From positions 19,992,046 through 20,056,045 of the forward strand of contig JACGWO010000007.1 in the NCBI GenBank assembly GCA_034509735.1: a stretch of 64,000 nucleotides of DNA, in the 5' to 3' direction. A model generated the notes under the pieces. That model did not search any database, was not told the origin of the DNA, and worked only from the letters and a program-made list of their open reading frames with translations. This DNA is from Sesamum alatum. Its lineage: Eukaryota > Streptophyta > Magnoliopsida > Lamiales > Pedaliaceae. Made by a program: the position numbers and the translations under genes. Shown in pieces: positions 2,383-53,435 of the stretch (position 1 is the stretch's first letter; each line of letters begins with the position of its first letter).

Positions 2383-4358
2383 TGAAAGATTATGGATCGT
2401 CCCGGGAAAATAGCGCGAATGCGGAAGCACGGTATAAAATAAAATTGCGGAATTAAAACATGCTTTAATAGAAATTAAAGAACACGCTCAAGGGGTGTGC
2501 CCTTGAGATTCCCGGGTGTTTGGTGTATCTCATGACATAAACAACATATAATAATCATGGAGGCCATAGGATTGAAAAATAAAGAGGGACGAAAATCTTA
2601 AAACGAGACCTACCCGTTGTTGTTTCCGTCTTCAACGGCTACTTGCGTTGTTCCCCGTTTTGCACCAAGACCTCGTTCTTGAGATCCTCCTAATCGTGAC
2701 ACACGATCCACCCACGTATTCTTGCACGTCGTGCTAGCAATGAACAAGTATTAATTTGGAGAGGATAGATCAACCACGCGTTATGAAATAACGGGATCGA
2801 TCTTCCTTAGTTCAATTGTTCCAAGAACAAAAGAACAAGAAAAGTAATATTTTCTTGGTGAGAGAGAGAGAGGGCGGACGAGAGAGGAGAGGAGAGAGTG
2901 TGTGTTGCGTGTGTGTTTTTCAAGAATCATCATCCTCCAATTGTAGGAGGCTAGGGTTTATATAGAGGAGTTTAATCCTCTTCAAACCCCAACTCTAAGA
3001 ACTCTATTTTGACTAGGATTTTGACCTAGTCAAAGTCCTAGTCAAAGTAACATTTGACCAAGTCAAATCAATCGTAGCCATCCATCTCTCCTTTCCATCT
3101 CAACCGTTGATTTTATTTAATGGAATATTTAAAACCTATTTAAATATTCCAAGAGGCCAAATAAATATAAATATTTATTTTAAGCCCATTAAATAAATTA
3201 CCTTAATAAATTTAATTTATTAATTTAATTCACTTTATCAAATAGAAGGAATTAACTCTCCAAGAAAATAAAGGACCCGATTAAATCCAATTTAATCATT
3301 CCTATTCTTCAATATTTAATTCTAAATTAAATACTAAATTTGTGTGTGGATAGTGTGTGACTCTTTAGGTTCACCTTTCAGCTAGACTTGGTCGGATTCC
3401 TAGAATCCATCCGTTACCATGGCTGGCCATCTAGCAACGGTCCATGGCACTAGAAACTAGGTGAAATATTCGGGGATGAACATTTAGGTTCTAACAGTAC
3501 ACTTGTCCTTCTGTCTACGGTCTCACCACTTAGGGTCTAGGGCACGGAAAAAATGCAGGTACCCATTTTGGACCTTAGTGTCGGTCTGTCCTTACTAAAC
3601 GCCGCAAGGGAATCCTTCCCTTCTGTTCAGTTACTGTGGCCACAGATTTTAGGAACAAGACACAGAGCATACGTGAGACTCAACTGTCAATGCCTTTTGA
3701 CAGGAGACAGATCCTTTCTTGGAAACTACTGTCACTCTGTATACCAGAGCTGCACTAGACATGGCTTATGACTACTCAAGTGCTTCTTGGCAATCTCTCA
3801 CCGTATCTAAGATACAGACCTGACATACAGGTAAACTCAGCAGTTCCTCAAGTCAAAGGACTTGACCTGTACCGTTGGAACCGGGAACACACGTCATACC
3901 TTGCTGACGATACTCAAGGTCCTCCGTAAGACGGTTCCCGCGAGTCACCTCAGTCAGCTGCTTCCTAGCAGGCTAACCCACTAACACTGCTTAGACGACC
4001 TTCGTCACCCGTCGATGAAACACGACAGCATATGCTTAGTGCAAGTCTCAAAGGGAATCTCGATACCCATTTTCGAGATTCCTTGACTTGGAGATTTCCG
4101 GACTGATTCAGCAAGACTGATTTCATGGACCTACCTCCAAGCGTAGTCCCAGTCCCCGAAATAGATTCTCAGTCCGTGGGTTTTGTTTGCGTAGCGAAAC
4201 AGATATGTAAAAAGCAAGTAGAAGTGAACGCAAACAAAGTAATGCCATGTGAATTTCACTTCTTTATTCATAAATGATTTATCTAAACACACTGAAATTG
4301 TCTAGACATAGGTTACATTTTCCTGCCAAGATTGGCTACATGGTCACCTATTCTAACA
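2383..4358 (-). mobile_element. Family A Copia LTR, complete (5' LTR of minus-strand element)
   Basis: 1,976 bp from TGTTAGAATAGG (ending at 4358) to CTTTCA (ending at 2383) on the minus strand, next to a PBS. It carries the U5 hairpin (2487-2507), a W-box-rich array (about 3003-3072), the AT-rich hairpin array (about 3095-3345) and the structured U3 block. The next bases (4359 onward) belong to the middle of another A LTR, so this element inserted into that LTR. Confidence 0.9.
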
Positions 4359-5606
4359 TAGGACTATATATAGAGGAGAAGTTTAATCCTCTTCAAACTC
4401 CAACTCTAAAGAAGACTAATTTGACTAGGATTTTGACCTAGTCAAAATCCTAGTCAAAGTAGTAATTTGACATAGTCAAATTAATCCCTAGTGATCCATC
4501 TCTCCTTTTAATCTCAACCATTAATTTAATTTAATGGAAATCCAATTTAATCATTCCATTTCTCCAAATATTTAATTCTAAATTAAATACTTAATGTGTG
4601 CGGATTGTGTGTGACTCTTTAGGTTCACCTTTCAGCTAGACTTGGTCGGATTTGTAGAATCCGCCGGTTACCATGGGTGGCCATCTAGCAACGGTCCATG
4701 GCACTAGAGACTAGGTGAATATTCGGGGATGAACATTTAGGCTCTAACAGTACACTTGTCCTTCCGTCTACGGTCTCACCACTTACGGTCTAGGGCACGG
4801 AAAATACAAGTACCCATTTTGGACCTAAGTGACTGTCTGTCCTTACTAAATGCCGCAAGGGAAGCCTTCCCTTCTGTTCAGTTACTGTGGCCATAGATTT
4901 TAGGGACAAGACACAGAGCATATGTGAGACTCGACTGTCAATACCTTTTGACAGGAGACAGATGCTTTCTTGGAAGCTACTGTCACTCTGTACACCGGAG
5001 CTGCACTAGACATGGCTTATGACTACTCAAGTGCTTCTTGGCAATCTCTCACCATATCTAAGATACAGCCCTGATATACAGGTAAACTCAGCAGTTCCTC
5101 AAGTCAAAGGACTTGACCTGTACTGTTGGAACCGGGAACACACGTCATACCTTGCCAACCCTACTCAAGGTCCTCGGTAACACGGTTCCTACGAGTCACC
5201 TCAGTCAGGTGCTCCCTAGCAGGCTAACCCACTAACACTGCTTAGACAACCTTCGTCACCCTTCGATAAAATACGGCAGCAGATGCTTAGTGCATGTCTC
5301 AAGGGGAATCTCGGTACTCATTTTCGAGATTCCTTGACTTGGAGATTTCAGGACTGATTCGGCAGGACTGATTTCATGGACCTACCTCCAAGTTTAGTCC
5401 CAGTCCTCGAAATACGTTTTTAGTCCGTGGGCGTTGTTTGCGTAGTGATCAGATAAGTATAAAGCAGATAAAGTGAACACAAACAAAGTAATGCAAAATG
5501 AATTTCACTTCTTTATTCGTTAATAATTTATTAAATCCTTGAAATTGTGTAGACATAGGTTACATTTTGCCTGCCAAGATTGGCTACATGGTCACCTATT
5601 CTAACA
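4359..5606 (-). mobile_element. Family A Copia LTR, truncated in window (3' LTR of element Y)
   Basis: Starts in mid-LTR (equivalent to about 2955 in the copy at 2383-4358) and runs to the TGTTAG end at 5606. The polypurine tract and RNase H end of the minus-strand element follow. The missing part should lie left of the window, because the copy ending at 4358 is inserted here. The predicted target duplication is TAGGA (4359-4363). An internal deletion in the AT-rich part makes it shorter than other A copies. Confidence 0.8.
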
Positions 5607-8136: not shown

Positions 8137-8464
8137 TGTTAGAATAGGTGACCATGTAAGCCAATTTTGGCGGGTATATGTAACCTATGTCTAGACAATT
8201 ATAGGTGTTTGATAAATCATTAATGAATAAAGAAGTGAATTTCATTTGGCATTACTTTGTTTGTGTTCACTTATATCTGTTTTCTATATCTGTTCACTAC
8301 GCAAACAAAGCCCACGGACTGAGAATCAATTTCGGGGACTGGGACTACGCTTGGAGGTAGGTCCATGGAATCAGTCTTCCCGAATCAGTCCGGAAATCTC
8401 CAAGTCAAGGAATCCCGAAAATGGGTACCGGGATTCCATTTGAGACTTGCACTAAGCACCTGCT

Positions 8465-8884
8465 GTCGTGTTTCATCGACGGGTGACGAGGGTCGTCTAA
8501 GCAGTGTTAGTGGGTTAGCATGCTAGGACGCAGCTGACTGAGGTGACTCGTGGGAACCGTCTTACGGAGGACCTTGAGTATGGTCTGCTAGGTATGACGT
8601 ATATTCCCGGTTCCAACGGTACAGGTCAAGTCCTTTGACTTGAGGAATTGCTGAGTTTACCTGTACATCAGGGCTATATCTTAGATATGGTGAGAGATTG
8701 CCAGAATTCTCTTTGGTAGTCATAAGCCATGTCTAGTGCAGTTCTGGTGTGCAAAGTGACAGTAGTTTCCAAGAAAGGATCTGTCTCCTGTCAATAGGTT
8801 TTGGCAGTTGAGTCTCATGTATACTCTAGGTCTTGTCCCTAAAACTGTGGCCACAGTGACTGAACAGAAGGGAAGGATTCCCTT
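8465..8884 (+). other. Conserved multi-hairpin U3 block, family A version
   Basis: An ordered set of short inverted repeats: H1 GTCG/CGAC around TGTTTCAT (8465-8480); H2 GACGA/TCGTC around GGG (8485-8497); H3 GTTAGC/GCTGAC (8514-8538); H4 GACC/GGTC (8570-8585); the palindrome CTGTGGCCACAG (8845-8856); H6 AAGGGAA/TTCCCTT around GGA (8868-8884). The same order occurs in families B, C and D with different stem bases and pairing kept. It lies upstream of the TATA box, so by position it would be in RNA mainly at the genome 3' end. The function is not known to me. Confidence 0.7.
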
Positions 8885-9152
8885 GCGGCGTTTAGTGAGG
8901 AGAGACCGACACTTAGGTCCAAAATGGATACCTGCATTTTCCGTGCCCTAGACTCTAAGTGATGAGACCAAAGACAGAAGGACAAGTGTACTGTTAGAGC
9001 CTAAATGTTCATCCCTGAATATTTCACCTAGTCTCTAGTGCCATGGACCGTTGCTAGATGGCCACCCATGGTAACGGAAGGATTCTAGGAATCCGACCAA
9101 GTCTAGCTGAAAGGTGAACCTAAAGAGTCACACACTATCCACACACATTTAG

Positions 9153-9368: not shown

Positions 9369-9426
9369 ATTAAATTAAATTAAATCAACGGTTGAGATCA
9401 ATGGGAGAGATGGATGGCTAGGATTG

Positions 9427-10403: not shown

Positions 10404-11773
10404 TATGGCATGGCAAGCCTGTATCTTACAAAGTACTTGAGTATGTAGGATGGTCTTGCATACGTCAAGGGACTAGTGGGAGGCAAACTAGGTCTGCGCA
10501 GGTTCATGTGTTGTCCTAAGGGAAATTGGATTTCAAAGGATAACCGGTGTAAGGAGTAGCTCCTTGAGGAATCAAGTAGAGCGACACCTCAGTATGATAT
10601 AGCAAACATCATTTTGTAATCAAGTTTTCCTACTGACTATATTCCAGTCCTCCTAAGGATGACCAGAATATCCTAGATACCTGAGAGGTACAGGTTTCTG
10701 GGTCAGTCCTGTCAATTGGATTATAATCCAAAAGACATAAGGAGAAGCAATGTTGGACATTGGATTGAATCAATGGCTTGGAGCCATGGAATTCGACATG
10801 GAATTCAAACTAGGTTTGAAACTCTATGTAACTGGAATATTCGTTTTGATGAGTTCATGTGGGGTATGACTCGATCAGTAACGAGCTTTGAGGGTCAGTG
10901 GGAGTTTAGTTGTGTTCCTAGTGTTTAAGTGTGTAACGTCTTATTCCTTTGGAATGAATTTAAGATGTTAGGAAACACTGAAACACAGACGTTGTTCACG
11001 CAATTCTCCATGAAAGGAATTGGATTCCTATATATAGGGTTAAGCTGTCCAAGACTCAGTCAGGTTGACTGATGAGGAAGCTTAGATGTTTGACATCCCC
11101 TACGTCTTTGCCGTAGGCAACATGGGTATGTTGTATGGTGCATTGGACCTGATGTTGTGTATGCTTTCGGCATAACGACAGAAATCGGGTGTGTACCGAG
11201 AGGCAGTAGACTGCTGTTGAGAACAGTCTTTTATACCTGAATAAGGATTAAAGAAGTGTTCTTGATGCAAGTTCAATGGAGAGTTGATTCTGGAAGGCTA
11301 TAGCGATACTAGCTTCCAGGATCATGTGAATAATATCTAGTCTCATTATGAACATATATTCAGGCTTAATGGTAAGGTGGTGGCTTGGAAAGGTTTCAAG
11401 CGGGACACCACGACGGACCATGAAAGTTGAATGTATGGCAACTTTAGAAGTTGCTCCGGAGAGTGGTTTGGATGAAAAACTACATCCAATGGTTGGGTGT
11501 GGTGCCTAGCACGTGCTAGCCAGTAGTTACCTTGGAGGATAACAACATGGCTGTAGCGCAAGCTATAGGACCGAGATCTCATCATGGATCAGGAAAATTC
11601 TTAGACAGTACCATCTGCTTGGAGCAATGGTATGAAGAGGTGACGTGCGGTTGGACCGCATCATCTTGGCAGAAATAAGGTAGACCCGTGAGACCGAGCC
11701 GGATATCGCAGATTACTCATGCTCAGATAAGTCTGAGCAACATGGGTGATTGGCTTTAGGTCAAGTGGGAGAT
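10404..11773 (+). pseudogene. pol: Family C pol relic (integrase end, RT, RNase H), duplicate copy
   Basis: Nearly identical to 17881-19257. The path of Copia pol is visible at DNA level: the GGCATGGCAAGCC region (integrase end), the NWNIRFDE equivalent near 10830, the site of the RT catalytic box near 10925, and the RNase H end with GGGTGATTGGC before the polypurine tract (11762-11773). There is no useful ORF. At the YVDD position it reads TTTAAGTGTGTAACG instead of coding YVDD. Differences from 17881-19257 are mostly 1-2 base indels. The left edge is a junction with A leader; the right edge is the intact start of the C LTR. Confidence 0.8.
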
Positions 11774-12101
11774 TGTTAGAATAGGTGACTAGAAAGCCAA
11801 TTGGATTGGCGGTTTTGGGTACTATTTAGCAATCTTTATTGACTTGATGAATATAGTAAGTATTCATCCGTGGCACTATGTGTTTGTTGTGCTTACTGAT
11901 TACGTTAAACGATGTTTTAAACGTCACAACAAATGCCCACAGACCAATTGTATAACCCATGTAGTTGGGCTGCGCATTGGATGGCAGCTATGAAACCAAC
12001 TTCTGAGGGTTGGTCTGGAATGTTCCAAGTCGAGGACCTCGAGACAGGGCATCGAGGGTCCTACAGAGACTTGCACTAAGGATTGCATTCATTGGATGAG
12101 T

Positions 12102-19757: not shown

Positions 19758-19886
19758 GGGAACCTCAAGGGGACACCCCCTTGAGCATGTTCTTTTAAAT
19801 TAAAAGCATGCTTTATTTTTTGTATGTTTAATTTTATCGCGCTTCCGCATTCGCGCATTCCCGGGACGATCCACCGATTTCTTTCA
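19758..19886 (+). mobile_element. Family A LTR, 3' end only
   Basis: Last about 130 bp of an A LTR, including the U5 hairpin (CTCAAGGGG/CCCCTTGAG, 19764-19785) and the terminal TTTCTTTCA. It may be the 3' LTR partner of 8137-10114, but the following bases (CGAGA) do not match that copy's TAACG flank. Confidence 0.75.
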
Positions 19887-20593
19887 CGAGACACAGAGCA
19901 TACATGAGACTCAACTGTCAATACCTTTTGTCAGGAGACAGATCCTTTCTTGGAAACTACTGCGTCACTTTGTACACCCGAGCTGCACTAGACATGGCTT
20001 ATGACTATCTCAAGAGTATTTTTGGCAATCTCTCACCATATCTAAGATACAGACCTGATGCACAGGTAAACTCAGCAGTTCCTCAAGTCAAAGGAGTTGG
20101 CCTGTACCGTTGGAACCGGGAATACACGTCATACCTTGCGTACCATACTCAAGGTCCTCCGTAAGACGGTTCCCACGAGTCACCTCAGTCAGCTGCTTCC
20201 TAGCATGCTGACCCACTAACACTGCTTAAACAACCTTCGTCACCCGTCGATGAAATACGACAGCAGATGCTTAGTGCAAGTCTCAAAGGGAATCCCGGTA
20301 CCCATTTTCGGGATTCCTTGACTTGGAGATTTCCGGACTGATTCGGTAAGACTTATTTCATGGACCTACCTCCAAGCGTAGTCCCAGTCCCCGAAATCGA
20401 TTCTCAGTCCGTGGGCTTTGTTTGCGTAGTGAACAGAAATGTAAATGCAGATATAAGTGAACGTAAACAAAGTATTGCCATATGAATTTTCACTTCTTTA
20501 TTCATAAATATTTTTATCAAATACCAAAAATTGTCTGGACATAGGTTACATATTTCCTGCCAAAATTGGCTTACATGGTCACCTATTCTAACA
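19887..20593 (-). mobile_element. Family A LTR, truncated (3' LTR of minus-strand element)
   Basis: Begins inside the U3 structured block and runs to TGTTAG at 20593, followed by the polypurine tract. It lacks the LTR portion from the palindrome region to the U5 end. It pairs with the 5' LTR at 38812-40806. Confidence 0.8.
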
Positions 20594-21434: not shown

Positions 21435-24400
21435 TGAAAGATTATGTGTGGATCGTCCCGGGAGATTAACGCGAATAGCGGAAGCGCGAAATAGTGCGTA
21501 ATAAAATTACAAAGCATAATTAAATGGAATTTAAAATCATGCATAATATACATAAACGAATCAAGGGGTATGCCCTTCATTCTCCCGGGCGTTCGGTGTA
21601 TCTCATGTTCATAAAAACACAACATGGAGGCCATAGAATTGAAACCGAAAAAAACGAAATTAAAGAAACCTACCCGGTTGTAGTTTTGTCTTTGTTTCGG
21701 CTACATGCATTGTTCCCCATTTTGCACCAAGATCTCAAAGAAGAAGACCCTCTAAATCATCTCACTCGCTGCACCGGAAAGCAATGAACCCTTGTGCTAG
21801 CAAGAAAATCATTGGGGAGAAGAGACATCGGTACACGCTATCAATTAACGCAACCGGCGTCTCTTATGTTCTACCTTGAATAAATCAAGAAGAACAAAAT
21901 AGAAATCTTGGAGAAAAGAAGAGGGGATGGACGAAAATCTTGAGAGTGATGAGAGATGAGAGTTGTAGAGAATACTAGGTGTGAGTGTGTGTTTTTTTGA
22001 GTATTTATAGAAGATGGAATTTCCTATTCCTTCTCAAACTCTTCCAAAGAGACACACTTTGACTAGGATTTTAACCTAGTCAAATCCTAGTCAAATTAGG
22101 CTTTGATTAAGTCAAATTAATCATGGCCCTTCATCTCATCATTCTCTAGATCAAATCTTGTCCATCCATTTTGATGGGATTTATGGAATGGGCCTATTTA
22201 ATTCTAAATTAAATATTCCATGGACTTTATATTAAATCATATTTAATATACTAAGCCCATTAATTAATTAATGGAAAGGACTTATTTAATTCTAAATTAA
22301 ATAGTCCCATGGACTTTATATTAAATCCTATTTAATATATCAAGCCCATTAATTAATTCCATAGAATGGGATTATTTAATTCTAAATTAAATAGTCCCAT
22401 GGACTTTATATTAATCCTATTTAATATACCAAGCCCACTAATTAATTAATTCACCCTTTTAATCCAATTAAAAGGAAAGCCCATGCTTTATAAAAATTCA
22501 TAAATCTAATTTATGAACTCAAGCCCAATTATTCCAAATAATCCATCGAGGCTTGAATCTCCAAGAAGTATAATTTAATTCCATTAAATTAAACCTTCTC
22601 CCGGAATTAATTCCAAATTAATTCCCTTTCATTTGGTGTAGCGGGTGTGACTCTTTAGGTTCACCTTTCAGCTAGACTTGGACCTACTTTTTGTTATTTC
22701 ATAACCAAAGTAGTCCGTTACCATGGGTGGCCATCTAGCAACGGTCCATGGCACTAGAGACTAGGTGAATTTATGGTGTGAACATTTAGGATCCGAGTTA
22801 CCACGCAGGTGCGGTCCTACCGACGCTCGAAACGTACGGGTACGGTCCTACTGTCGCCTGTCTCCCGGCCTTTAGTCTAGGGGTCGGTTCCCATTCTTGA
22901 CTAGGCAACTATGCATAATGCTCGAGATAGGTTTAACTCGACGTAGGAAATCCTTTCCCACTACATCAAGTGCTATGGCCATAGACTTTGTGAGTCTAAA
23001 CCATCTCCGAGCGCATAGGAGCATCTTGCTGTCATATCCTTTGACAGGGGACAGATCCTATCTTGGAATTCACCGTTCTTAACATACTCCGACTACACTG
23101 GACGAGGCTTATGATGACCATGTGATATAATCGGTCAAATTTCACCAGATCCAAGATACAACCTTAGTATGTAGGGGGACTACCGTGATCCTCAAGTCCG
23201 AGAACTTAATCCCGTACTATCGGAACCGGGAATACGAGTCATACCGACCAAGCCTGAGTAGCTTCCATATGACGATTCCCGCGAGTCACCTCAGTCGGCC
23301 GCTCCCCAGCAGGCCGACCCACTAACACTGCTTAGACGATCCTCGTCACCCGTCGATGAAACACGACAGCAGATGCTTAGTGCAAGTCTCAAATGGATGC
23401 TCGATGCCCTGTCTCGAGATTCCTTTGACTTGGAGTATTTCAGACTGATTCGGCGAAACAGATTTCATGAACCTACCTCCAAGCGTAGTTCCAATTTCCA
23501 GAAATGTTATTTCAGTCTGTGGGCGTTTGTTGTGACTGAAAGAAATCTGGTGGATCGTCCCGGGAATTGCGCGAATGCGGAAGCGCGGTAAAAATAAACA
23601 TATTAAAATAAAAGGCATGCTTTTAATTTAAAGAACACGCTCAAGGGGTGTGCCCTTGAGGTTCCCGGGCGTTCGGTGTATCTCATGATCATAAAACAAT
23701 TAAATAAATCATGGAGGCCATAGAGTTGAAAAATAAAGAGGGACAAAAAATCTTAAACGAGACCTACTCGTTGTCGTTTTCATCTTCAACTGCTACTCGC
23801 GTTGTTCCCCGTTTTGCACCAAGACTCGTTCTTGAGACCCTCCAAATCGTGACACACGATCCACCCACGTATCTTGCACGTCGTGCTAGCAACGAACAAG
23901 TATTATTTTTTGGAGTGGACGAATCAATAACTCGTTATCAATTAACGGTATTGGTTCGTCAAAGTTCTTGATGTTCCAAGAACAAAAAGAACTAAGAAAA
24001 ATATTTTCTTGCTAGAGAAAGAGAGAGGGGGCGGACGAGAGGTAGGAGAGGGAGAGTGTGTGTTGTGTGTGTTTTTCAAGAATCATCCATCCTTTAAATG
24101 TTGGAAGCTAGGGGTTTATATAGAGGAAGAGTTTAATCTCTTTAAACTCAAACTCTAAGTAACCTAATTTGACTAGGATTTTGACCTAGTCAAAGTCCTA
24201 GTCAAATTTAGTGTTTGACCTAGTCAAACGAATCCTAGCCTTCCATCTCCCCTTTCCATCTCGACCGTATTTTAAATTTAATGGAATATTTAAACCCTAT
24301 TAAATATTCCAAAAGGCTAAATAAATATAATATAATAAATTAATATTATAATTTATTCTTAAGCCTATTAAATCAACCCTTTTAATAAATCCTATTTATT

Positions 24401-25686
24401 AATTTAATTCCTTTTATCAAATAGAAGGAATTAATTTCTCCAAGAAAATATAGGACCCTATTAAATCTAATTTAATCATTCCTTTACTCCAATATTTAAT
24501 TCCAAATTAAATACTAAGTGTGTGTGGATAGTGTGTGACTCTTTAGGTTCACCATTCAGCTAGACTTGGTCGGATTCCTAGAATCCGTCCGTTACCATGG
24601 GTGGCCATCTAGCAACGGTCCATGGCACTAGAGACTAGGTGAAATATTCGGGGATGAACATTTAGGTTCTAACAGTACACTTGTCCTTCTGTCTTCGGTC
24701 TCATCACTTAGGGTCTAGGGCACGGAATATGCAGGTACCCATTTTGGAACCTAACTGTCGGTCTGTCCTCACTAAACGCCGCAAGGGAAACCTTTTCCCT
24801 TCTGTTCAGTCACTGTGGCCACAGATTTCAGGGACAAGACACAGAGCATATATGAGACTCAACTGTCAACACCTTTTGACAGGAGACAAATCCTTTCTTG
24901 GAAACTACTGTCACTTTGTACACCCGAGCTGCACTAGACATGGCTTATGACTACTCAAGAGTATTTTGGCAATCTCTCACCATATCTAAGATACAGACCT
25001 GATGCACAGGTAAACTCAGCAGTTCCTCAAGTCAAAGGACTTGGCCTGTACCGTTGGAACCGGGAATACACGTCATACCTTGCTGACCATACTCAAGGTC
25101 CTTCGTAAGACGGTTCCCGCGAGTCACCTCAGTCAGCTGTTTCCTAGCATGCTGACCCACTAACACTGCTTAGACGACCTTCGTCACCCGTCGATGAAAT
25201 ACGACAGCAGATGCTTAGTGCAAGTCTCAAAGGGAATCCCGGTACCCATTTTCGGGATTCCTTGACTTGGAGATTTCCGGACTGATTCGGTAAGACTGAT
25301 TTCATGGACCTACCTCCAAGCGTAGTCCCAGTCCCCGAAATCGTTTCTCAGTCCGTGGGCTTTGTTTGCGTAGTGAACAGAAATGTAAATGCAGATAAGT
25401 GAAACGTAACAAAGTATTGCCATATGAATTTTCACTTCTTTATTCATACACATTTTATCAAATACCAAAGAATTGTCTAGACATAGGTTACATATTCCTG
25501 CCAAAAATTGGCTTACATGGTCACCTATTCTAACAGTGACATCGTAACGATGCAAGCAGTAAGTACAACAAACTCATGCCTATGAATCCTTACTACATTC
25601 ATTAACATAATATTACTTGTTCACAGATTGACGAATGGTTCTCAGAACAGCCAATACCATTGACTTTCTGGTCACCTATTCTAACA
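21435..25686 (-). mobile_element. Family B LTR (3' LTR), interrupted
   Basis: 21435-23531 plus 25541-25686 together match 31064-33303. The U5 hairpin (21559-21581) has one mismatch here. The LTR ends CTAACA at 25686, followed by the polypurine tract ATTCTCCCACTTG (plus-strand reading). The interruption is the solo A LTR with its duplicated target GTGAC. Confidence 0.85.
23537..25535 (-). mobile_element. Solo family A LTR with GTGAC target duplication
   Basis: 1,999 bp, TGTTAG end at 25535 and TTTCA end at 23537 on the minus strand. GTGAC is present on both sides (23532-23536, 25536-25540). There is no internal sequence: a solo LTR left by recombination between two LTRs. It interrupts the B LTR at the sequence TTGTTGTGACATCG, which is intact at about 33148. 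Confidence 0.92.
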
Positions 25687-31063: not shown

Positions 31064-33303
31064 TGAAAGATTATGTGTGGATCGTCCCGGGAGATTAACG
31101 CGAATAGCGGAAGCGCGAAATAGTGCGTAATAAAATTACAAAGCATAATTAAATGGAATTTAAATCATGCATAATATACATAAACGAATCAAGAGGTGTG
31201 CCCTTGATTCTCCCGGGCGTTCGGTGTATCTCATGTTCAATAAAACACAACATGGAGGCCATATAATTGAAATCGAAAAAACGAAATTAAAGAACCTACC
31301 CGGTTGTAGTTTTGTTTTCGTTTCGGCTACATGCATTGTTCCCCATTTTGCACCAAGATCTCAAAGAAGAGACCCTCTAAATCATCTCACTCGCTGCACC
31401 GGAAAGCAACGAACCCTTGTGCTAGCAAGAAAATCATTGGGGAGAAGAGACATCGGTACACGCTATCAATTAACGCAACCGGCGTCTCGTATGTTCTACC
31501 TTGAATAAATCAAGAAGAACAAAATAGAAATCTTGGAGAAAAGAAGAGGGGATGGACGAAAATCTTCAGAGTGATGAGAGATGAGAGTTGTAGAGAATAC
31601 TAGGTGTGAGTGTGTGTTTTTTTGAGTATTTATAGAAGATGGAATTTCCTATTCATTCTCAAACTCTTCCAAAGAGACACACTTTGACTAGGATTTTGAC
31701 CTAGTCAAATCCTAGTCAAATTAGGCTTTGATTAAGTCAAATTAATCATGGCCCTTCATCTCATCATTCTCTAGATCAAATCTTGTCCATCCATTTTGAT
31801 GGGCTTTATGGAATGGGCCTATTTAATTCTAAATTAAATATTCCCATGGACTTTATATTAAATCATATTTAATATACTAAGCCCATTAATTAATTAATGG
31901 AAAGGACTTATTTAATTCTAAATTAAATAGTCCCATGGACTTTATATTAAATCCTATTTAATATATCAAGCCCATTAATTAATTCCATAGAATGGGATTA
32001 TTTAATTCTAAATTAAATAGTCCCATGCACTTTATATTAAATCCTATTTAATATACCAAGCCCACTAATTAATTAATTCACCCTTTTAATCTAATTAAAA
32101 GGAAAGCCCATGCTTTATAAAATTCATAAATCTAATTTATGAACTCAAGCCCGATTATTCCAAATAATCCATCGAGGCTTGAATCTCCAAGAAGTATAAT
32201 TTAATTCCACTAAATTAAACCTTCTCCCGGAATTAATTCCAAATTAATTCCCTTTCATTTGGTGTAGCGGGTGTGACTCTTTAGGTTCACCTTTCAGCTA
32301 GACTTGGACCTACTTTTTGTTATTTCATAACCAAAGTAGTCCGTTACCATGGGTGGCCATCTAGCAACGGTCCATGGCACTAGAGACTAGGTGAATTTAT
32401 GGTGTGAACATTTAGGATCCGAGTTACACGCAGGTGCGGTCCTACCGACGCTCGAAACGTACGGGTACGGTCCTACTGTCGCCTGTCTCCCGGCCTTTAG
32501 TCTAGGGGTCGGTTCCCATTCTTGACTAGGCAACTATGCATAATGCTCGAGATAGGTTTAACTCGTCGTAGGAAATCCTTTCCCACTACATCAAGTGCTA
32601 TGGCCATAGACTTTGTGAGTCTAAACCATCTCCGAGCGCATAGGAGATCTTGCTGTCATATCCTTTGACAGGGGACAGATCCTATCTTGGAATTCACCAT
32701 TCTTACATACTCTAACTACACTGGACGAGGCTTATGATGACCATGTGATATAATTGGTCAAATTTCACCAGATCCAAGATCCAGCCTTAGTATGTAGGGG
32801 ACTGCCGTGATCCTCAAGTCCGAGGACTAATCCCGTACTATCGGAACCGGGAATACGAGTCATATCGACCAAGCCTGAGTAGCTTCCATATGACGATTCC
32901 CGCGAGTCACCTCAGTCGGCCGCTCCCCAGCAGGCCGACCCACTAACACTGCTTAGACGATCCTCGTCACCCGTCAATGAAACACGACAGCAGATGCTTA
33001 GTGCAAGTCTCAAATGGATTCTCGATGCCCTGTCTCGAGATTCCTTTGACTTGGAGTATTTCAGACTGATTCGGCGAAACTGATTTCATGAACCTACGTC
33101 CAAGCGTAGTTCCAATTTCCCGAAATGTTATTTCAGTCTGTGGGGTTTTGTTGTGACATCGTAACGATGCAAGCAGTAAGTACAACAAAACTCATGCCTA
33201 TGAATCCTTACTACATTCATTAACATAATATTACTTGTTCACAGATTGACGAATGGTTCTCAGAACAGCCAATACCATTGACTTTCTGGTCACCTATTCT
33301 AAC
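31064..33303 (-). mobile_element. Family B LTR, complete (5' LTR)
   Basis: 2,240 bp. Contains the U5 hairpin (31187-31209, one G-U pair on the minus strand), W-box array (about 31684-31742), AT-rich hairpin array (about 31800-32260) and structured U3 block (about 32580-33020). It is very similar to the interrupted left LTR, with scattered small indels. Confidence 0.9.
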
Positions 33304-34087
33304 ATTCTCCATATACGAGTTTTGGGTGAGTCCTAACACCCTTTTAGATCTGTCCCTGACAATCTGGATGCCTAGGATGTAGGAGGCTTCATCCAAGTCC
33401 TTCATGGAAAAAGTGGGTTGACAACCATGCTTTTGTGTTTCCTAACATTCTAACGTCATTACCAATGAGTAGAATGTTATCCACATAAAGCACTAGGAAC
33501 ACTATTGAGCTCCCACTGACTTTCTTGTATACACAAGGGTTGGATTCGTTTTTTATGAAGTCATAACCCCGTATTACTTCGTCAAAGCGAATGTTCCAAC
33601 TTCAGGAGGCTTGTTTGAGGCCATAGATGGACTTCTGGAGGCGACAGATTTTCTGTTCTTCTCCAGTAACCGTGAAACCCTCCGGCTGATCCATATAGAT
33701 CTCTTCTTCAATGAAACCATTGAGGAAGGCCGTTTTCACGTCCATCTGGCATATCTCATAGTCATACCATGCTGCTATGGCGAGCAGGATCCGAATGGAC
33801 TTATCCATGGCTACTGGCGAGTAGGTATCCTCAAAATCGACCCCGGGTCGTTGAGTGTATCCCTTAGCTACAAGCCTAGCCTTAAAGGTTGTGACTTCTC
33901 CATCAACGCCAAGTTTGCACTTGTAGACCCACTTACAGCCCACTGGCTTAACACCTTTCGGTGGATCTACAAGAGTCCATACTTGGTTCTCGTTCATGGA
34001 GTCCATTTCGGCTTTCAGGGCCTCAAGCCATTTTCCGGAGTCGATGTCAGACATCGCTTCTCCATATGTCTTACGATCATTATCCAA
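33304..34087 (-). pseudogene. pol: Copia reverse transcriptase, family A, decayed
   Basis: The minus-strand ORF 33602-34087 (161 codons) is the RT N-terminal half: [40 protein letters not shown], the MDVKTAFLNG motif with the first catalytic Asp, and KSIYGLKQAS. After a frameshift the catalytic box at 33476-33487 reads YVDN instead of YVDD, a change expected to abolish activity. The thumb region continues to 33304, where the B element interrupts it; the rest is at 20594-21434. Confidence 0.9.
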
Positions 34088-38811: not shown

Positions 38812-40806
38812 TGAAAGGAAATCGTGGATCGTCCCGGGAAATTGCGAGAATGCGGAAGCGCGATATAAAATAAAATACAGAAATTAAAACATGCTTTAAT
38901 GAATTAAAGAACACGCTCAAGGGGTGTACCCTTGAGATTCCCGGAGTTTGGTGTATCTCATGATTAAAGAACATATATAAAAGATCATGGAGGGCATAGG
39001 GTAGAAAATAATAGGAGGCATAAACGTAAACCAAGACCTACCCGTTGTCGTTTTCGTCTTCAACGGCTACACGCGTTGTTCCCCGTTTTGCACCAAGATC
39101 TCGTTCTTGAGACCCTCCAAATCGGGACACACGATCCACCCACGTATCTTGTACGTCGTGCTAGCAACGGACAAGTGTATATTTTGGAGTGGATGAATCA
39201 ACGACACGTTATCAATTAACGGTATTGATTCATCTAAGTTCTAATGTTCCAAGAACAAGAGAACTAGAAAATAATTTCTTGGAGAGAGTGGAGAGAGAGG
39301 GCGGACGAGAGATATGGGAGAGGGGGCCGAAAATTGTGTGTTGTGTGTGTGTGTTGGAATTTCATCCTTTTGCAATTGTTGGAAGCTAGAGGTTTATATA
39401 GAGGAGGAGTTTAATCCTCTTTAAACTCCAACTCTAAGAACTCTAATTTGACTAGGATTTTGACCTAGTCAAAGTCCTAGTCAAACTAGTGTTTGACCTA
39501 GTCAAACCAATCCTAGCCTTCTATCTCCCCTTTCCATCTCAACCGTTGATTTTAATTTAATGGAATATTTAAATTCCATTAAATATTCCAAAAGGCCAAA
39601 TAAATATAATAAATAAATATTAATATTTATTCTAGGCCCATTAAATCAATTCCCTTAATAAATCCAATTTATTAATTTAATTCCCTTTATCAAATAGAAG
39701 GAATTAATTTCTCCACGAAAATATAGGACCGGATTAAATCTAATTTAATCATTCCTTTACTCCAATATTTAATTCCAAATTAAATACTTAAGTGTGTGTG
39801 GATAGTGTGTGACTCTTTAGGTTCACCTTTCAGCTAGACTTGGTCGGATTCCTAGAATCCGCCCGTAACCATGGGTGGCCATCTAGCAACGGTCCATGGC
39901 ACTAGAGACTAGGTGAAATAATCGAGGATGAACATTTAGGCCCTAACAGAAACACTTGTCCTTCTGTCTTCGGTCTCATCACTTAGAGTCTAGGGCATGG
40001 AAAATGCAGGTACCCATTTTGGACCTAAGTGTCGGTCTGTCCTTACTAAACGCCGCAAGGGAAACGTTCCTTTCTGTTCAGTTACTGTGGCCACAGACTT
40101 TAGGGACAAGACACAGAGCATACATGAGACTCAACTGTCAATACCTTTTGACAGGAGACAGATCCTTTCTTGGAAACTACTGTCACTCTGTACACCCGAG
40201 CTGCACTAGACATGGCTTATGACTACTCAAGAGTATTTTGGCAATCTCTCACCATATCTAAGATACAGACCTGATGCACAGGTAAACTCAGCAGTTCCTC
40301 AAGTCAAAGGACTTGACCTGTACCGTTGGAACCGGGAATACATCATACCTTGCAGACCATACTCAAGGTCCTCCGCAAGACGGTTCCCGCGAGTCACCTC
40401 AGTCAGCTACTTCCTAGCATGCTGACCCACTAACACTGCTTAGACGACCTTCGTCACCCGTCGATGAAATACGACAGCAGATGCTTAGTGCAAGTCTCAA
40501 AGGGAATCCCGGTACCCATTTTCGGGGTTCCTTGACTTGGAGATTTCCGGACTGATTCGGTAAGACTAATTTCATGGACCTACCTCCAAGCGTAGTCCCA
40601 ATCCCCAAAATCGATTCTCAGTCCGTAGGCTTTGTTTGCGTAGTGAACAGATATGTAAAAGCAGATATAAGTGAACGTAAACAAAGTATTGCCATATGAA
40701 CTTTTCACTTCTTTATTCATATATGTTTTATCAAACACCTGAAATTCTCTAGACATAGGTTACATATTCCTGCCAAAATTGGCTTACATGGTCACCTATT
40801 CTAACA
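38812..40806 (-). mobile_element. Family A LTR, complete (5' LTR)
   Basis: 1,995 bp with all A landmarks: U5 hairpin 38916-38936, W-box array about 39444-39508, hairpin array about 39550-39790, U3 block. It is followed at 40807 by Gypsy gag sequence (CGGCC), so the minus-strand A element is inserted in G. The left flank copy is lost with the truncated 3' LTR. Confidence 0.9.
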
Positions 40807-41637: not shown

Positions 41638-41952
41638 TGTTAGAATAGGTGACCAGAAAGTCAATGGTATTGGCTGTTCTGAGAACCATTCGTCAATCTG
41701 TGAACAAGTAATATTATGTTAATGAATGTAGTAAGGATTCATAGGCATGAGTTTGTTGTACTTACTGCTTGCATCGATACGATGTCACAACAAACGCCCA
41801 CAGACTGAAATAACATTTCGGGAAATTGGAACTACGCTTGGAGGTAGGTTCATGAAATCAGTTTCACCGAATCAGTCTGAAATACTCCAAGTCAAAGGAA
41901 TCTCGAGACAGGGCATCGAGAATCCATTTGAGACTTGCACTAAGCATCTGCT

Positions 41953-42372
41953 GTCGTGTTTCATCGACGGGTGACGAGGATCGTCTAAGCAGTGTTAGTG
42001 GGTCGGCCTGCTGGGGAGCGGCCGACTGAGGTGACTCGCGGGAACGTCATATAGAAGCTACTCGGGCTTGGTCGGTATGACTCGTATTCCCGGTTCCGAT
42101 AGTACGGGATTAGTCCTCGGACTTGAGGATCACGGCAGTCCCCTACATACTAAGGCTGTATCTTGGATCTGGTGAAATTTGACCGATTATATCACATGGT
42201 CATCATAAGCCTCGTCCAGTGCAGTCGGAGTATGTAAGAACGGTGAATTCCAAGATAGGATCTGTCCCCTGTCAAAGGATATGACAGCAAGATCTCCTAT
42301 GCGCTCGGAGATGGTTTAGACTCACAAAGTCTATGGCCATAGCACTTGATGTAGTGGGAAAGGATTTCCTAC
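41953..42372 (+). other. Conserved multi-hairpin U3 block, family B version
   Basis: H1 GTCG/CGAC around TGTTTCAT (41953-41968); H2 GACGA/TCGTC around GGA (41973-41985); H3 GTCGGCC/GGCCGAC (42002-42026); H4 AAGC/GCTT (42055-42069); H5 CCCG/CGGG (42089-42108); palindrome CTATGGCCATAG (42331-42342); H6 GTGGGAAA/TTTCCTAC around GGA (42354-42372). H3 and the palindrome differ from other families by paired changes. Confidence 0.7.
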
Positions 42373-42688
42373 GTCGAGTTAAACCTATCTCGAGCATTAT
42401 GCATAGTTGCCTAGTCAACGATGGGAACCGACCCCTAGACTAAAGGCCGGGAGACAGGCGACAGTAGGACCGTACCCGTACGTATCGAGCGTCGGTAGGA
42501 CCACACCTGCGTATAACTCGGAGCCTAAATGTTCACACCATAAATTCACCTAGTCTCTAGTGCCATGGACCGTTGCTAGATGGCCACCCATGGTAACGGA
42601 CTACTTTAGTTATGAAATAATGAAAAGTAGGTCCAAGTCTAGCTGAAAGGTGAACCTAAAGAGTCACACCCGCTACACCAAATGAAAG

Positions 42689-46650: not shown

Positions 46651-47125
46651 TGTTAGAATAGGTGACCATGTAAGCCAATTTTGGCAGGAATATGTAACCT
46701 ATGTCTAGACAATTTTTGGTATTTGATAAAAAACATTTATGAATAAAGAAGTGAAAATTCATATGGCAATACTTTGTTTACGTTCACTTATATCTGCATT
46801 TACATTTCTTTTCACTACGCAAACAAAGCCCACGGACTGAGAATCGATTTCGGGGACTAGGACTACGCTTGGAGGTAGGTCCATGAAATCAGTCTTACCG
46901 AATCAGTCCGGAAATCTCCAAGTCAAGGAATCCCGAAAATGGGTACCGGGATTCCTTTGAGACTTGCACTAAGCATCTGCTGTCGTATTTCATCGACGGG
47001 TGACGAACGTCGTCTAAGCAGTGTTAGTGGGTCAGCATGCTAGGAAGCAGCTGACTGAGGTGACTCGCGGGAACCGTCTTACGGAGGACCTTGAGTATGG
47101 TCAGGAAGGTATGACGTGTATTCCC
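46651..47125 (+). mobile_element. Family A LTR, first part (5' LTR of plus-strand element W)
   Basis: Starts TGTTAGAATAGG after GTCAT (46646-46650) in Y RT. It runs through the beginning of U3 and stops at ATTCCC (47125), where a D LTR begins. The LTR continues at 52003 with about 17 bp missing at the junction. Confidence 0.88.
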
Positions 47126-48345
47126 TGTTGGAATAGGTGACCAGAAAGCCAATAGGTTTGGCAATTTGTAACCTATCCGACAACTTGATGTGAATGTAAT
47201 ATTATTATGTGATGAATAAGATGAGTGTTCGTCACCAATGGTACCTTCTTTGTTGCGCTCATCTTACATTTGTTAAAATGGTGTTTAACTTATATCGCAA
47301 CAAAGCCCACAGACCATGGATAACAACTCGTGCAGTTGGGCCACGCATTGGATGGTGGTCATGAAACCAACTGATTAAGAGTTGGGTCTGAAACGTTCCA
47401 AGTCGAGGACCTCGAGACAGGGCATCGAGAGTCCTATTGAGACTTGCGTCAAGAGTCGTGTTCATTGGATGAGTGCCGTGTTTCATCGGCGACAGGCATG
47501 GGACGCCTACACGATCTTGATGGGTTGGTCGACTGGGGTCGAGCCGACTGGACTGACTCGCGGGATCATCATATGGAAGCCTTGGAGGCTTGGTCGGTAT
47601 GATTGGTTTTCCCCGGTTCCGATAGTACGGGAGTAATCCTCAGACTTGAGGGATCATGGCAGTCGCGTGCACAGGACGGCTGTATCTTGGATCTGGCGAG
47701 AGGTAATCATTCTGTAAGATGATTATCATAAGCCTTGTCCAGTGCAGTCGGAATGTGTAGCGAGGACGGTGGATTCCAAGAAGAGGATCCGTCCCCTGTC
47801 AGTATGTGACAGAGGTATCTCCTATGCACTCGGAGACACGTTCATGCTATTTAAAGCTGTGGCCACAGTGGTTGGTCGAACAGGGAATGGTTTCCTGTGT
47901 CGACGCAATGAAGCATACGTGGTCTCGAGTATTAAGCATAGATGCCTAGTCAAGGATGGGAACCGACGCCCAATTCCATACCCTAGACTAAGGCCGGGAG
48001 ACGGTAGACGGAAGGATCGTACCCGTGCGGAATCGGCGCCTAAATGTTCACGCCAATTCACCTAGTCTCTAGTGCCATGGACCGTTGCTAGACGGCCACC
48101 CATGGTAACGGGCCCTTGTGGGACACGGGCCCAAGTCCAGCTGAGGGTGAACCTAAAGAGTCACACACAAATCACCGAGGAGGTTGAGAGATCGACTTGG
48201 AGTCAATCTCGAAGGATAAAATAAGTAATTGGATTACTTAAGGAAAGTCCATTGGATGGACGGGCCGATATTGTATCGGGCTTTCATTTAATCGGTAAAT
48301 TGGATTTTCGATTAAATATGGAAAGTTGAGATGTTGAGACGTTGG
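47126..48345 (+). mobile_element. Family D LTR, first about 1.2 kb
   Basis: Starts TGTTGGAATAGGTGACC. It has the U3 block (H1-H4 near 47475-47600, palindrome CTGTGGCCACAG at 47857-47868, H6 47880-47898) and the start of the hairpin array, then breaks near 48345 into D leader sequence. The bases before it (TTCCC, 47121-47125) may be a target copy; no matching copy is found at 52003. Confidence 0.85.
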
Positions 48346-48794: not shown

Positions 48795-49976
48795 ATGTCT
48801 AAGAACCCGTTAATCATGATTCTTGAGACTAACAAATTCAACGGAACGAACTACTCGGACTGGCTGAGAAACCTGAGGATTGTCCTCGGTTTCGAGAACC
48901 AAGGCTATGTCTTGGACGAGCCGCCACCGAGCGACTTACCGGAGGGGTCCACGCCTGAAGAACGTTTGACGTTCGAGAAATGGCATGAGGACAACCAAAA
49001 AGTACGCAGTATCATACTGGCTTCGATGTCTAACGACATCCAGAAGCAGTATGAGAGGCTGCACAACGTCTCCGCCATAATGCTCCGCATGAACGAGGTT
49101 TATGCGGTTCCGGATAGGCATATTAGATATGCCGCCACAAAAGCATTCTTTGGCACCAAGCTTGCTGAAGGAGCGTCTGTACAAAGTCATGGGGTCAAGA
49201 TGCTCTCCCTAGTAGAGAAACACGAGGACCTTAAAGCTGGGCTTAACAATGACACGTACATTGACGTGATCCTCCAGTCGCTTCCTCCATCCTATGACCC
49301 GTTTGTTGTAAACTATAACATGAACGGACTTGAGAAGTCTATTCATGAGTTGATCAACATGCTGGTCCAATACGAGGCAACGACCCACAAGTCGGTGCCG
49401 GCGGTATTGATAGGAGAGGCTTCGACCTCCAAGGCGAATGGCAAGAGGGTCGGACACTGGAAGAGGAAGAAGGGCAAAGGGAAGACGGTTGTGGCCCCTG
49501 CTCACGCTCCGGGCGTCCCTGTTGCTCCGGTTGGACCGAGCAAAGGGAAAGGGAAGGCCCGTGGTTCTCAGCGGTCCAAGACAAATGATGTCTGCATGCA
49601 TTGCCAAGGGAAAGGGCATTGGAAGAGGGAGTGCCCACAACTCCTCTCCAACCCAGGTGTGTTTGTGGTTGAAGTTAATATGACTACTAATTCTGCTTCA
49701 TGGGTATTGGATACCGGGTGTGGTGCTCACATGTGCAGTGATCTGCAGGCACTGCAAAGAAGTAGAAGGCTAACCAAGGATGAGATGATCCTGAGGCTAG
49801 GCGATGGCAAGGCCGTTGCTGCGGAGGCCGTAGGATCACTAGAGTTAGCCATTAGTAGTCATGTTAGGATTGTACTGAACGACTGTTTCAATGTACCTAG
49901 CATGATTAAAAACATTGTTTCCATCCCGGTCCTTGGAGGCTTGGTCGGTATGATTGATTTTCCCCGGTTCCGATAG
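48795..49976 (+). CDS. gag: Copia gag-protease ORF, family D, truncated and fused to LTR sequence
   Basis: 393 codons from ATG at 48795 (MSKNPLIM). The gag core is uninterrupted (NKFNGTNYSDWLRNLRIVL, DTYIDVILQSLPPSYDPF). A basic Gly/Lys linker follows, then the CCHC zinc knuckle CMHCQGKGHWKREC, and the protease box VLDTGCGAHMCS. At about 49934, after SIPVL, coding sequence stops at a junction with the middle of a D LTR, and the ORF ends with about 12 codons read from LTR DNA. The full D gag-protease at 57699 continues past this point with DKEGYEF. Gag would bind RNA and form particles and protease would process it. This truncated form may still be translated, but there is no pol behind it. 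Confidence 0.85.
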   Translation: MSKNPLIMILETNKFNGTNYSDWLRNLRIVLGFENQGYVLDEPPPSDLPEGSTPEERLTFEKWHEDNQKVRSIILASMSNDIQKQYERLHNVSAIMLRMNEVYAVPDRHIRYAATKAFFGTKLAEGASVQSHGVKMLSLVEKHEDLKAGLNNDTYIDVILQSLPPSYDPFVVNYNMNGLEKSIHELINMLVQYEATTHKSVPAVLIGEASTSKANGKRVGHWKRKKGKGKTVVAPAHAPGVPVAPVGPSKGKGKARGSQRSKTNDVCMHCQGKGHWKRECPQLLSNPGVFVVEVNMTTNSASWVLDTGCGAHMCSDLQALQRSRRLTKDEMILRLGDGKAVAAEAVGSLELAISSHVRIVLNDCFNVPSMIKNIVSIPVLGGLVGMIDFPRFR

Positions 49977-52002: not shown

Positions 52003-53435
52003 CAAGTCCTTTGACTTGAGGAACTGCTGAGTTTACCTGTGCATCAGGTCTGTATCTTAGATATGGTGAGAGATTGCCAAAATACTCTTGAGTAGTCATA
52101 AGCCATGTCTAGTGCAGCTCGGGTGCACAGAGTGACAGTAGTTTACAAGAAAGGATCTGTCTCCTGTCAAAAGGTATTGACAGTTGAGTCTCATGTATGC
52201 TCTGTGTCTTGTCCCTGAAATCTGTGGCCACAGTAACTGAACAGAAGGGAAAGGTTTCCATTGCGGCGTTTAGTAAGGACAGACCGACACTTAGGTCCAA
52301 ATGGGTACCTGCTTTTTCCGTGCCCTAGACTCTAAGTGATGAGAACGAAGACAGAAGGATAAGTGTACTGTTAGAGCCTAAATGTTCATCCCCAATTATT
52401 TCACCTAGTCTGTTGTGCCATGGACCGTTGCTAGATGGCCACCCATGGTAACGGGCGAATTCTAGGAATCCGACCAAGTCTAGCTGAAAGGTGAACCTAA
52501 AGAGTCACACATTATCCACACACACTTAGTATTTAATTTGGAATTAAATATTGGAGTAAAGGAATGATTAAATTCGATTTAATGGGGTCCTATATTTTCT
52601 TGGAGAAATTAATTCCTTTTATTTGAAAAAGGGAAAAAAATTAATAAATAGGATTTATTAAAGGGTTGATTTAATGGGATTTAAATATTTCATTAAATTA
52701 AAATCAACGGTTGAGATGGAAAGGGTAGATGGAAGGCTAGGATTTGTTTGACTAGGTCAAACACTAGTTTGACTAGGACTTTGACTAGGTCAAAATCCTA
52801 GACAAATTAGAGTTCTTAGAGTAGGAGTTTTAAGAGGATTAAACTCCTCCTCTCTAAATACCCCTAGCTTCCAACTTTTTGAAGGATGATGAAATTCCAA
52901 CACACACACAACACACACTCAACTCTCTCCCCTTGCCTCTCGTCCGCCCCCTCTCTCTCTACAAGAAAATATTTTTTCTAGTTCTTTTGTTCTTGGAACA
53001 TTAGAACTTAGATGAATCAATACCGTTAATTGATAACGTGTTGTTGATTCATCCACTCCAAAAATATACACTTGTTTGTTGCTAGCACGACATGCAAGAT
53101 ACGTGGGTGGATCGTGTGTCACAATTTGGAGGGTCTCAAGAACGAGATCTCGGTGCAAAACGGGGAACAACGCGTGTAGCCGTTGAAGACGAAAACGACA
53201 ACGGGTAGGTCTCGTTTTATTTTTTCGTCTCTCTCTTTATTTTCAACTCTATGGCCTCCATGATTTCTTTGCATGTTGTTTGATCATGGGATACACCGAA
53301 CACCCGGGAATCTCAAGGGTACACCCCTTGAGCGGGTTATTTTATTATTAAAAGCATGCTTTAATTTTTGTATGTTATTTTATATCGCGCTTCTGCAATC
53401 GCGCAATTCCCGGGACTATCCACCGATTTCTTTCA
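52003..53435 (+). mobile_element. Family A LTR, second part (5' LTR of element W)
   Basis: Continues the LTR begun at 46651: the rest of U3 (hairpins, TTGAC array at 52746-52806), R and U5 with hairpin 53312-53332, ending TTTCTTTCA. PBS follows at 53437-53448. Confidence 0.88.

Follow-up and report, generated by a model that had tools for sequence, protein, structure and literature searches.

What keeps a long stretch of a plant retrotransposon conserved as an RNA shape more than as a sequence? Long terminal repeats (LTRs) are usually read as promoters and integration ends, and their U3 has been described as the less conserved part (PMC3601003). The question arises in a 64,000-nt stretch of plant DNA from Sesamum alatum (contig JACGWO010000007.1, positions 19,992,046 to 20,056,045; here called the window), which consists of nested Ty1/copia LTR retrotransposons. 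An original prediction had described one ordered series of U3 hairpins, with stems changing as pairs, at 8465-8884, 41953-42372, 12102-12525, and 54286-54710, one place for each of four LTR families (A to D). Alignable blocks are present at all four positions and do represent four families, but a blastn search within the window (E up to 1e-3) finds 16 copies rather than four (eight of family A, three of B, one of C, and four of D; 4 of the 16 are partial; Table 1), with between-family identities of 66-81% in the blastn alignments. On balance, we favor the view that selection maintains a multi-domain, sense-strand RNA fold in the 5′ part of U3, which would act in cis to export or package the genomic RNA.

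Paired change was measured on the minimum-energy fold of one copy, computed independently of the other families, which were then scored at its pairs in a MAFFT alignment. The null exchanges whole columns among stem columns that share the same reference base and the same local bin (30 columns; bins of 60 give similar results), preserving the family history and local rate of each column and destroying partnership alone. With seven references (A1, A2, A4, B1, C1, D2, and D3) and bins of 30, the block (A1 8465-8900) shows 243 double changes that keep a pair against 143.4 expected, an excess of about 1.7-fold, while those that break a pair stay at expectation (131 against 139.7). The LTR start upstream (8137-8464) behaves in the same way, with 208 against 129.3 pair-keeping and 131 against 131.9 pair-breaking changes; a structured block does lie where it was first placed, but its limits are arbitrary. 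Single references give pair-keeping z values of 1.7-4.8 in the block and 1.2-4.0 in 8137-8464. Because the references share data, the summed counts are not independent tests. In 100 structure-free simulations of like divergence, four references yield a ratio of 1.02 ± 0.15 (maximum 1.33) and a mean z of 0.04 ± 0.56 (maximum 1.27). The real block yields 142 against 78.5 (ratio 1.81, mean z 3.8) from references A4, B1, C1, and D2, and 130 against 73.2 (ratio 1.78, mean z 3.6) when A1 replaces A4. Paired changes in the block exceed chance and, calibrated in this way, support the earlier claim of selection on a folded nucleic acid.

That claim had been made subject to the paired changes not being few independent events. 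In total, 51 pairs have majority letters that differ at both positions between two or more families while each of those families still forms the pair, even where a third does not. They fall on 11 split patterns, among them A versus the rest (12 pairs), A and B versus C and D (6), and D alone (5). The families did swap pieces long ago: the U3 of B1 is a mosaic, nearest to A in 8317-8500 (82-89%) and nearest to C or D on either side. With 51 pairs on 11 splits, the paired swaps are nevertheless not few. The family B mosaic, compared over 41638-42500 with 8137-9110 and 11774-12900, records an old exchange between families.

Two other procedures were set aside. RNAalifold energy against column shuffling was dropped since the shuffling destroys too much (z is also about -2 to -7 in the internal region and falls to -12 where the alignment is gapped), and permutation across the whole compared stretch was superseded by local bins because stems cluster in patches of like rate, which left the result unchanged. 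A comparison of private with fixed changes, in which 69 of 154 changed cells within families and 607 of 1232 between families are still paired, is uninformative.

The original prediction left undecided whether the block acts as RNA or as DNA; strand, arm distance, and an arm at the LTR junction favor sense-strand RNA. When G·U pairs are allowed in folding the plus strand of the block, Watson-Crick swaps rise to 2.00 times expectation (mean z 4.70) from 1.71 (3.36) without them, whereas the minus strand gains nothing (1.61, mean z 2.88, against 1.63, 2.98). Likewise, in 8137-8464 the ratio moves from 1.58 to 1.74 on the plus strand and from 1.61 to 1.49 on the minus strand. Folds computed without G·U show a weak lean in the block, where G·U occurs at 0.83 and A·C at 0.71 of expectation on the plus strand (0.85 and 0.71 on the minus strand). 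Sorted by arm separation (below 30, 30-60, 60-110, and above 110 nt), the excess is 1.71, 1.82, 2.11, and 1.60, with breaking double changes at 0.98-1.12; single-reference z values for arms more than 110 nt apart are just -1.0 to 1.8. An excess undiminished with distance is as expected for folded RNA. Folding-energy z scores against 60 shuffles, computed for five of the 16 copies, are -4.83 (A1), -3.81 (A4), -3.55 (B1), -1.73 (C1), and -3.29 (D2) on the plus strand and -1.07, -1.32, -2.17, -2.00, and -1.92 on the minus strand.

A consensus fold of 8137-8900 from 14 copies contains 212 pairs in 32 helices. It pairs 92.2% of 2795 cells, compared with 86.4% when the 3′ letters are redealt and 34-41% when the partner is slid. 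Two-sided change is seen at 52 of its 212 pairs, in 191 cells where shuffling gives 73.5. Because the fold was selected with covariation, these statistics taken alone are circular; the tests on single-copy folds (double changes, G·U strand test, arm distance) are not. The domains are listed in Table 1. The largest helix, a long hairpin at 8657-8756, had escaped the original prediction; it has 38 pairs, 12 of them with two-sided change, and is enclosed by 8639-8773, whose helix 8639-8653/8760-8773 has 12 pairs and no broken cell. A covariance model built from 8639-8773 and its homologues matches 15 of the 16 copies at E < 1e-28 (13 of the 15 built the model); only A8, which lacks the central-hairpin part, is without a match. 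The stems first listed can be read in the four copies named, apart from H5 in A, and H3 in A and D relies on G·T pairs. H5 reads CCCG/CGGG in B and D and CTCG/CGAG in C, as described; family A has no CGGG partner, and its CCC is paired elsewhere, in helix 20. Of the 14 copies extending to the H1 loop, which was said never to change, nine have TGTTTCAT, four (A2, A3, A6, and A8) have TATTTCAT, and A5 has TATTTTAT. The complement of the loop, ATGAAACA, has 12 occurrences in the window, most of which are the opposite strand of the loop, and no pairing partner was found among them.

Past the block the signal first lapses and then returns in part, perhaps as patches: a test window from 8877 gives z of -1.9 to 0.9, and one from 9015 gives 2.5, 2.9, 0.0, and 2.3. 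In the 9015 region, A, B, and D have different sequences in the next stem, as judged by eye. In a cruder test, LTR columns 1200-1600 (AT-rich and gappy) reach z of up to 5.0, with one of six at -0.6; they are not counted because of the tandem repeats in family B and poor alignment. LTR windows from column 1600 on are mostly near chance in this test and hardly alignable. Tandem repeats lie nearer to the promoter in the family B U3s (22179-22450, 31808-32077, and 42867-43127), as about three copies of an 87-90-bp AT-rich unit.

Where would such a fold act? The A1 LTR spans 8137-10114 with its TATA box at LTR position 1399, so that the block lies upstream of the TATA box, as first proposed. Given that position, we infer that the fold is transcribed from the 3′ LTR only and would stand solely at the 3′ end of the element RNA, as part of its untranslated end. 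A structured RNA in the 3′ LTR is what characterizes retroviral export elements, such as the Rex-responsive element (RxRE) of human T-cell leukemia virus type 1 (HTLV-1; PMC7551171) or the constitutive transport elements (CTEs), and a structured sequence is found here, its place in the RNA being predicted from the TATA box. By this analogy the fold may mark unspliced genomic RNA for export and for packaging into particles. We chose this role because of the RxRE analogy and a second plus-strand fold just before gag.

One branch of this explanation is a packaging and dimerization signal, in which the 12-nt palindrome and the loops would pair two genomic RNAs and bind Gag together with the fold before gag. 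Two features speak for it. The palindrome is preserved through a two-sided change (CTGTGGCCACAG to CTATGGCCATAG), and the second fold, directly 5′ of gag, also prefers the sense strand: counting pairs of probability > 0.3 in all four families, the leader has 35 on the plus and 13 on the minus strand, compared with 28 and 15 in the block and 17 and 11 at the LTR start. One changed palindrome pair is little, however, and D1 breaks the palindrome (CTGTGACCACAG). Known packaging signals of retroelements moreover lie mostly in the 5′ leader. We regard this branch by itself as possible but doubtful. The leader fold occupies 57280-57660 in D, 15588-15983 in C, and, on the minus strand, 36989-36606 in A and 29249-28862 in B.

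The fold could instead serve reverse transcription, with its U3-start portion setting plus-strand priming or strand transfer and the remainder acting as a scaffold. At all five junctions read, in four families, inverted-repeat arms flank the polypurine tract and the LTR start, and the tract hairpin can be drawn in every family. In family B the outer arm is ATTGACTT and the inner arm AAGTCAAT, which swaps a G-C pair of families C and D (Table 1) for A-T; in the two family A copies the arms measure 7 and 9 bases. An arm near the U3 start would thus pair with sequence just outside the LTR and place the tract in a loop. Because such pairing spans the junction of the internal region with the 3′ LTR, it is possible only in element RNA, its cDNA, or an inserted copy of the element, and a solo LTR cannot form it. 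A hairpin of this kind has been described in Sireviruses and almost half of the classic copia elements, where it is thought to aid primer formation and proposed to guide RNase H (PMC2829016). It accounts for about 60 nt, not for the 700 nt of covarying helices downstream, and as a full explanation we find it rather more doubtful than packaging. Within the export and packaging reading, this hairpin at the base of the fold may still help to define the plus-strand primer.

A function at the DNA level, with the inverted repeats serving as transcription-factor sites or promoter cruciforms, has been proposed for the LTR palindromes of Sireviruses, and a cis-regulatory role has been suggested for palindromic repeats of copia LTRs (PMC2829016, PMC10760457). 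The swap excess on the minus strand (1.63) fits this account, as it would any inverted repeat. Against it, tolerance of G·U helps the plus strand only, arms separated by 60-110 nt covary no less strongly than close ones, and one helix links the LTR with sequence outside it. The hairpins also differ from one another by eye rather than being copies of one motif, and CGG-N(0-6)-CCG occurs 0, 2, 1, and 2 times in the four U3s. We consider a DNA-level function unlikely.

The palindrome count is one of three features that separate these elements from Sireviruses. A palindromic motif of at least eight copies with a CGG-CCG core, reported for 13 of the elements in PMC2829016, is absent from the four U3s. 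The Sirevirus polypurine octamer AGGGGGAG was not found in the 500-700 nt 5′ of five 3′ LTRs, each of which has one AGTG(A/G)GAG. The Sirevirus CA/ATTGG junction before TATCAGAGC is replaced by CA-G-TGGTATCAGAG at the A, B, and C primer sites and by CAAG-TGG in D. By these three features the element is not a Sirevirus.

Several observations weigh against the reading of a U3-specific sense-strand RNA element. The evidence base is four families in one window, with one copy of C. A single simulated reference reached z 3.6 without structure, the family A references score low in the block (z 1.7-2.6), and one of five consensus-fold measures goes the opposite way, with 129 further pair types where shuffling gives 141.0. 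The plus strand is preferred to a moderate degree, and in C1 the energy z is lower on the minus strand. The tract hairpin appears in the minimum-energy fold at one of the five junctions, competing with local pairing because its U3 arm can also pair inside U3. Internal regions compared in the same way, with families A and B assigned from the primer sites beside their LTRs, are not silent. The leader just 5′ of gag (columns 0-400) scores above the U3 block, at 93 pair-keeping changes against 40.9 (ratio 2.27) and 56 breaking changes against 45.4 (four references, bins of 30). Gag columns 400-800 (56 against 41.5, ratio 1.35, mean z 1.25) and 800-1200 (71 against 54.1, ratio 1.31, mean z 1.45) are at or just above the simulation limit, and the 3′ gag columns 1200-1600 (120 against 75.8, ratio 1.58, mean z 2.9) come near the 1.69 of the block. 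With controls above chance, paired change is not special to U3, which stands out from most of gag and not from the leader or 3′ gag. Columns 1600-2000 give 122 against 91.0 (ratio 1.34). In the cruder test, the mean z of double changes is 2.45 for U3 (35 tests), 1.62 for the internal region (41), and 1.29 for the rest of the LTR (33). The portion from 3′ gag onward corresponds to 58441-59174 in D with the matching parts of A, B, and C, where the alignment is gappy.

These controls bear on the idea that selection favors a compact or structured genomic RNA throughout and that U3 has no task of its own. In its favor, the leader and gag 1200-1600 exceed the simulations and gag 400-1200 sits at their upper limit, while the 35, 20, and 34 shared plus-strand pairs in the leader and 3′ gag stretches are as many as in U3. 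The signal is uneven, however: across four successive gag stretches the shared pairs number 0, 6, 20, and 34 on the plus strand and 0, 13, 3, and 10 on the minus strand, so that gag 400-1200 contributes 0 and 6, and LTR windows from 1600 are mostly near chance, though hardly alignable. This account seems to us less plausible still than one at the DNA level.

Arms might also be kept alike without selection, by arm-to-arm copying through template switching in reverse transcription or replication. Reverse-transcribing elements often switch templates, and the B1 U3 is a mosaic, A-like in 8317-8500 and C/D-like elsewhere. Copying of this kind predicts that short, close arms are favored, but the excess does not fall with distance; it predicts no strand preference, unlike the G·U result; and single pairs are swapped within otherwise unchanged stems. 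We hold it to be improbable. An RNA triple-helix stability element (ENE), which raises mobility from near the 3′ end of the RNA of the Arabidopsis copia element Evade (PMC12501189), is a very remote candidate, as the repeated U-rich tracts it requires are missing (no five-T run in the first 1000 nt of five of six LTRs and a single one, at position 29, in A2; of the spacer that precedes the LTR and harbors the ENE in Evade, the last 90 nt were covered) and Rfam has no match to the region.

Table 1 Features of the U3 fold and its copies in the window (coordinates of the window)
Feature	Coordinates	Strand	Basis
A1, structured 5′ part of U3 as tested	8137..8900	+	LTR start, primer-binding site, covariation in 8137-8464 and 8465-8900
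A1, block of the original prediction	8465..8884	+	blastn, alignment
Helices 8-11, 5′ of the block first named: 8315-8322/8385-8392 plus inner helices	8315..8392	+	7 of 19 pairs with two-sided change
Multi-branch domain, closed by 8397-8400 with 8540-8543	8397..8543	+	consensus fold
Contents of multi-branch domain: 8401-8449; 8450-8512 (H1 and H2 inside); 8513-8539 (H3)	within 8397..8543	+	consensus fold
Central domain: helices 8619-8624/8781-8785, 8630-8635/8775-8780, 8639-8653/8760-8773, hairpin 8657-8756	8619..8785	+	consensus fold
12-nt palindrome CTGTGGCCACAG (family B CTATGGCCATAG)	8845..8856	+	alignment, consensus fold
Further conserved U3 stretch with hairpins	9015..9110	+	84-90% between-family identity; double-change support moderate, not from every reference
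Polypurine-tract hairpin, family C: arms 11749-11757 (ATTGGCTTT) and 11793-11801 (AAAGCCAAT); tract AGTGGGAG at 11764-11771 in loop; LTR from 11774	11749..11801	+	junction reading
Polypurine-tract hairpin, family D: same arms as family C, across junction 61599; tract AGTGAGAG	61574..61626	+	junction reading
Copy A2, solo LTR, GTCAC repeat on both sides	24770..25535	-	blastn
Copy A3	40045..40806	-	blastn
Copy A4	3594..4358	-	blastn
Copy A5, 3′ LTR with polypurine tract	4845..5606	-	blastn, junction reading
Copy A6, partial, 3′ LTR with polypurine tract	19886..20593	-	blastn, junction reading
Copy A7, partial	52003..52262	+	blastn, covariance model
Copy A8, cut by inserted D element	46651..47129	+	blastn
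Copy B1, solo LTR, CTGCG repeat	41638..42385	+	blastn
Copy B2	32556..33304	-	blastn
Copy B3; remaining U3 start at 25536-25686, separated by nested A2	22931..23536	-	blastn
Copy C1	11774..12540	+	blastn
Copy D1	53951..54725	+	blastn
Copy D2	47126..47912	+	blastn
Copy D3	61599..62388	+	blastn
Copy D4, partial	49931..50249	+	blastn, covariance model

The assignment of the elements to Ty1/copia follows from their proteins and ends. Retrotran_gag_2 occurs in three of seven scanned open reading frames, the integrase core (rve) in one, and a zinc knuckle in one. The family D gag has 804 relatives; the best 120 of the 804 are 54-80% identical, come from Sesamum wherever a name is shown, and many are named as gag-pol, RE2, or TNT 1-94 polyproteins. 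The LTRs are about 2.0-2.25 kb long with TG...CA ends. They start with TGTTAGAATAGGTGACC, from which some copies deviate by one or a few letters. The LTRs of families A to C have the termini TGTTAGAATAGG...TTTCA and end in TTTCA one base before TGGTATCAGAG. The primer site TGGTATCAGAGC is exact at seven places and carries one mismatch at two more, among which 44020 is not at an LTR end; TATCAGAGC fits tRNA-Met (PMC2829016). Two solo LTRs are flanked by 5-bp direct repeats, the target duplications CTGCG (B1) and GTCAC (A2). A1 LTR positions 1001-1400 are AT-rich (20-36% G+C), and the LTR is hard to align there.

Other features of these elements stand apart from the fold. Two copies of the 3′ part of the family C internal region (10401-11774 and 17878-19257, 99.3% identical) flank one LTR and primer site, reflecting either a tandem LTR-internal form produced by recombination or an assembly effect; a 500-base run of N starts at 19258, after the second copy. 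Just 5′ of the A1 TATA box, 9427-9478 holds three near-repeats of TTTGACTAGG(A/T)C, each with a TTGAC core, which we take to be like W-boxes. Element C has a GC-rich low-complexity stretch in its leader, shortly past the primer site (14305-14472), and a GC-rich inverted repeat lies at a similar position in the leaders of family A.

Searches of public collections added no copies. Rfam gives no match at the gathering score in the whole window and none at E up to 5 in 41638-42500. A first block pattern matched no public viral contig, a second matched 35, none of which a block profile recovers in nhmmer (E up to 1), and a protein query returned four stretches in such contigs, none confirmed as a further copy.

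Apart from BARE, little is known of how the RNA of plant retrotransposons comes to be selected for translation or for packaging (PMC3735527), and a covarying element supplies exact helices to break and restore. The fold also bears on silencing: hairpins in maize copia LTRs attract small RNAs (PMC10760457), so a fold kept regardless must pay its way.

The original prediction knew of no described LTR element like this one. In the literature searched (subscription journals lie mostly outside its scope), we found no plant LTR retrotransposon with a reported covarying RNA fold in U3. The junction hairpin is already known, as are hairpins within copia LTRs. The junction repeat of PMC2829016 (2010) has the same layout, with its left arm outside the LTR beside the polypurine tract, its right arm about 20 nt inside, and the tract in the loop; the consulted portion of that paper reports this repeat and palindromic motifs and does not describe a deeper multi-domain U3 fold with paired changes. 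Maize Copia LTRs are likewise rich in stable hairpins, and the authors suspect a cost of hairpin loss (Genome Research 2023, PMC10760457); that study ties single-sequence folding to small RNAs and its main text does not contain the string "covari", whereas here families and strands were compared. Large retrotransposon derivatives, terminal-repeat retrotransposons in miniature, and Cassandra are said to specify conserved RNA secondary structures (PMC7215508), but these are non-coding elements with a fold over the whole element or a 5S part, not in the U3 of gag-pol elements. The ENE of Evade is also a 3′ structured RNA of a plant copia element, with a role in mobility shown for Evade; it differs in requiring U-rich tracts, which were not found in the tested U3 part, and in sitting in the spacer before the LTR (PMC12501189). 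The HTLV-1 RxRE and the CTEs of simple retroviruses belong to animal retroviruses and use Rex or NXF1 as partner (PMC7551171), and the sesame fold is likened to them by structure and predicted place in the 3′ LTR. We tentatively suggest that a plant copia U3 may hold a large modular control element of genomic RNA, about 0.75 kb or more, whose architecture stays constant while its stems are rewritten and which cooperates with the fold before gag, a possible counterpart of retroviral 3′ LTR export and packaging elements that is selected as RNA although the same DNA is also a promoter.
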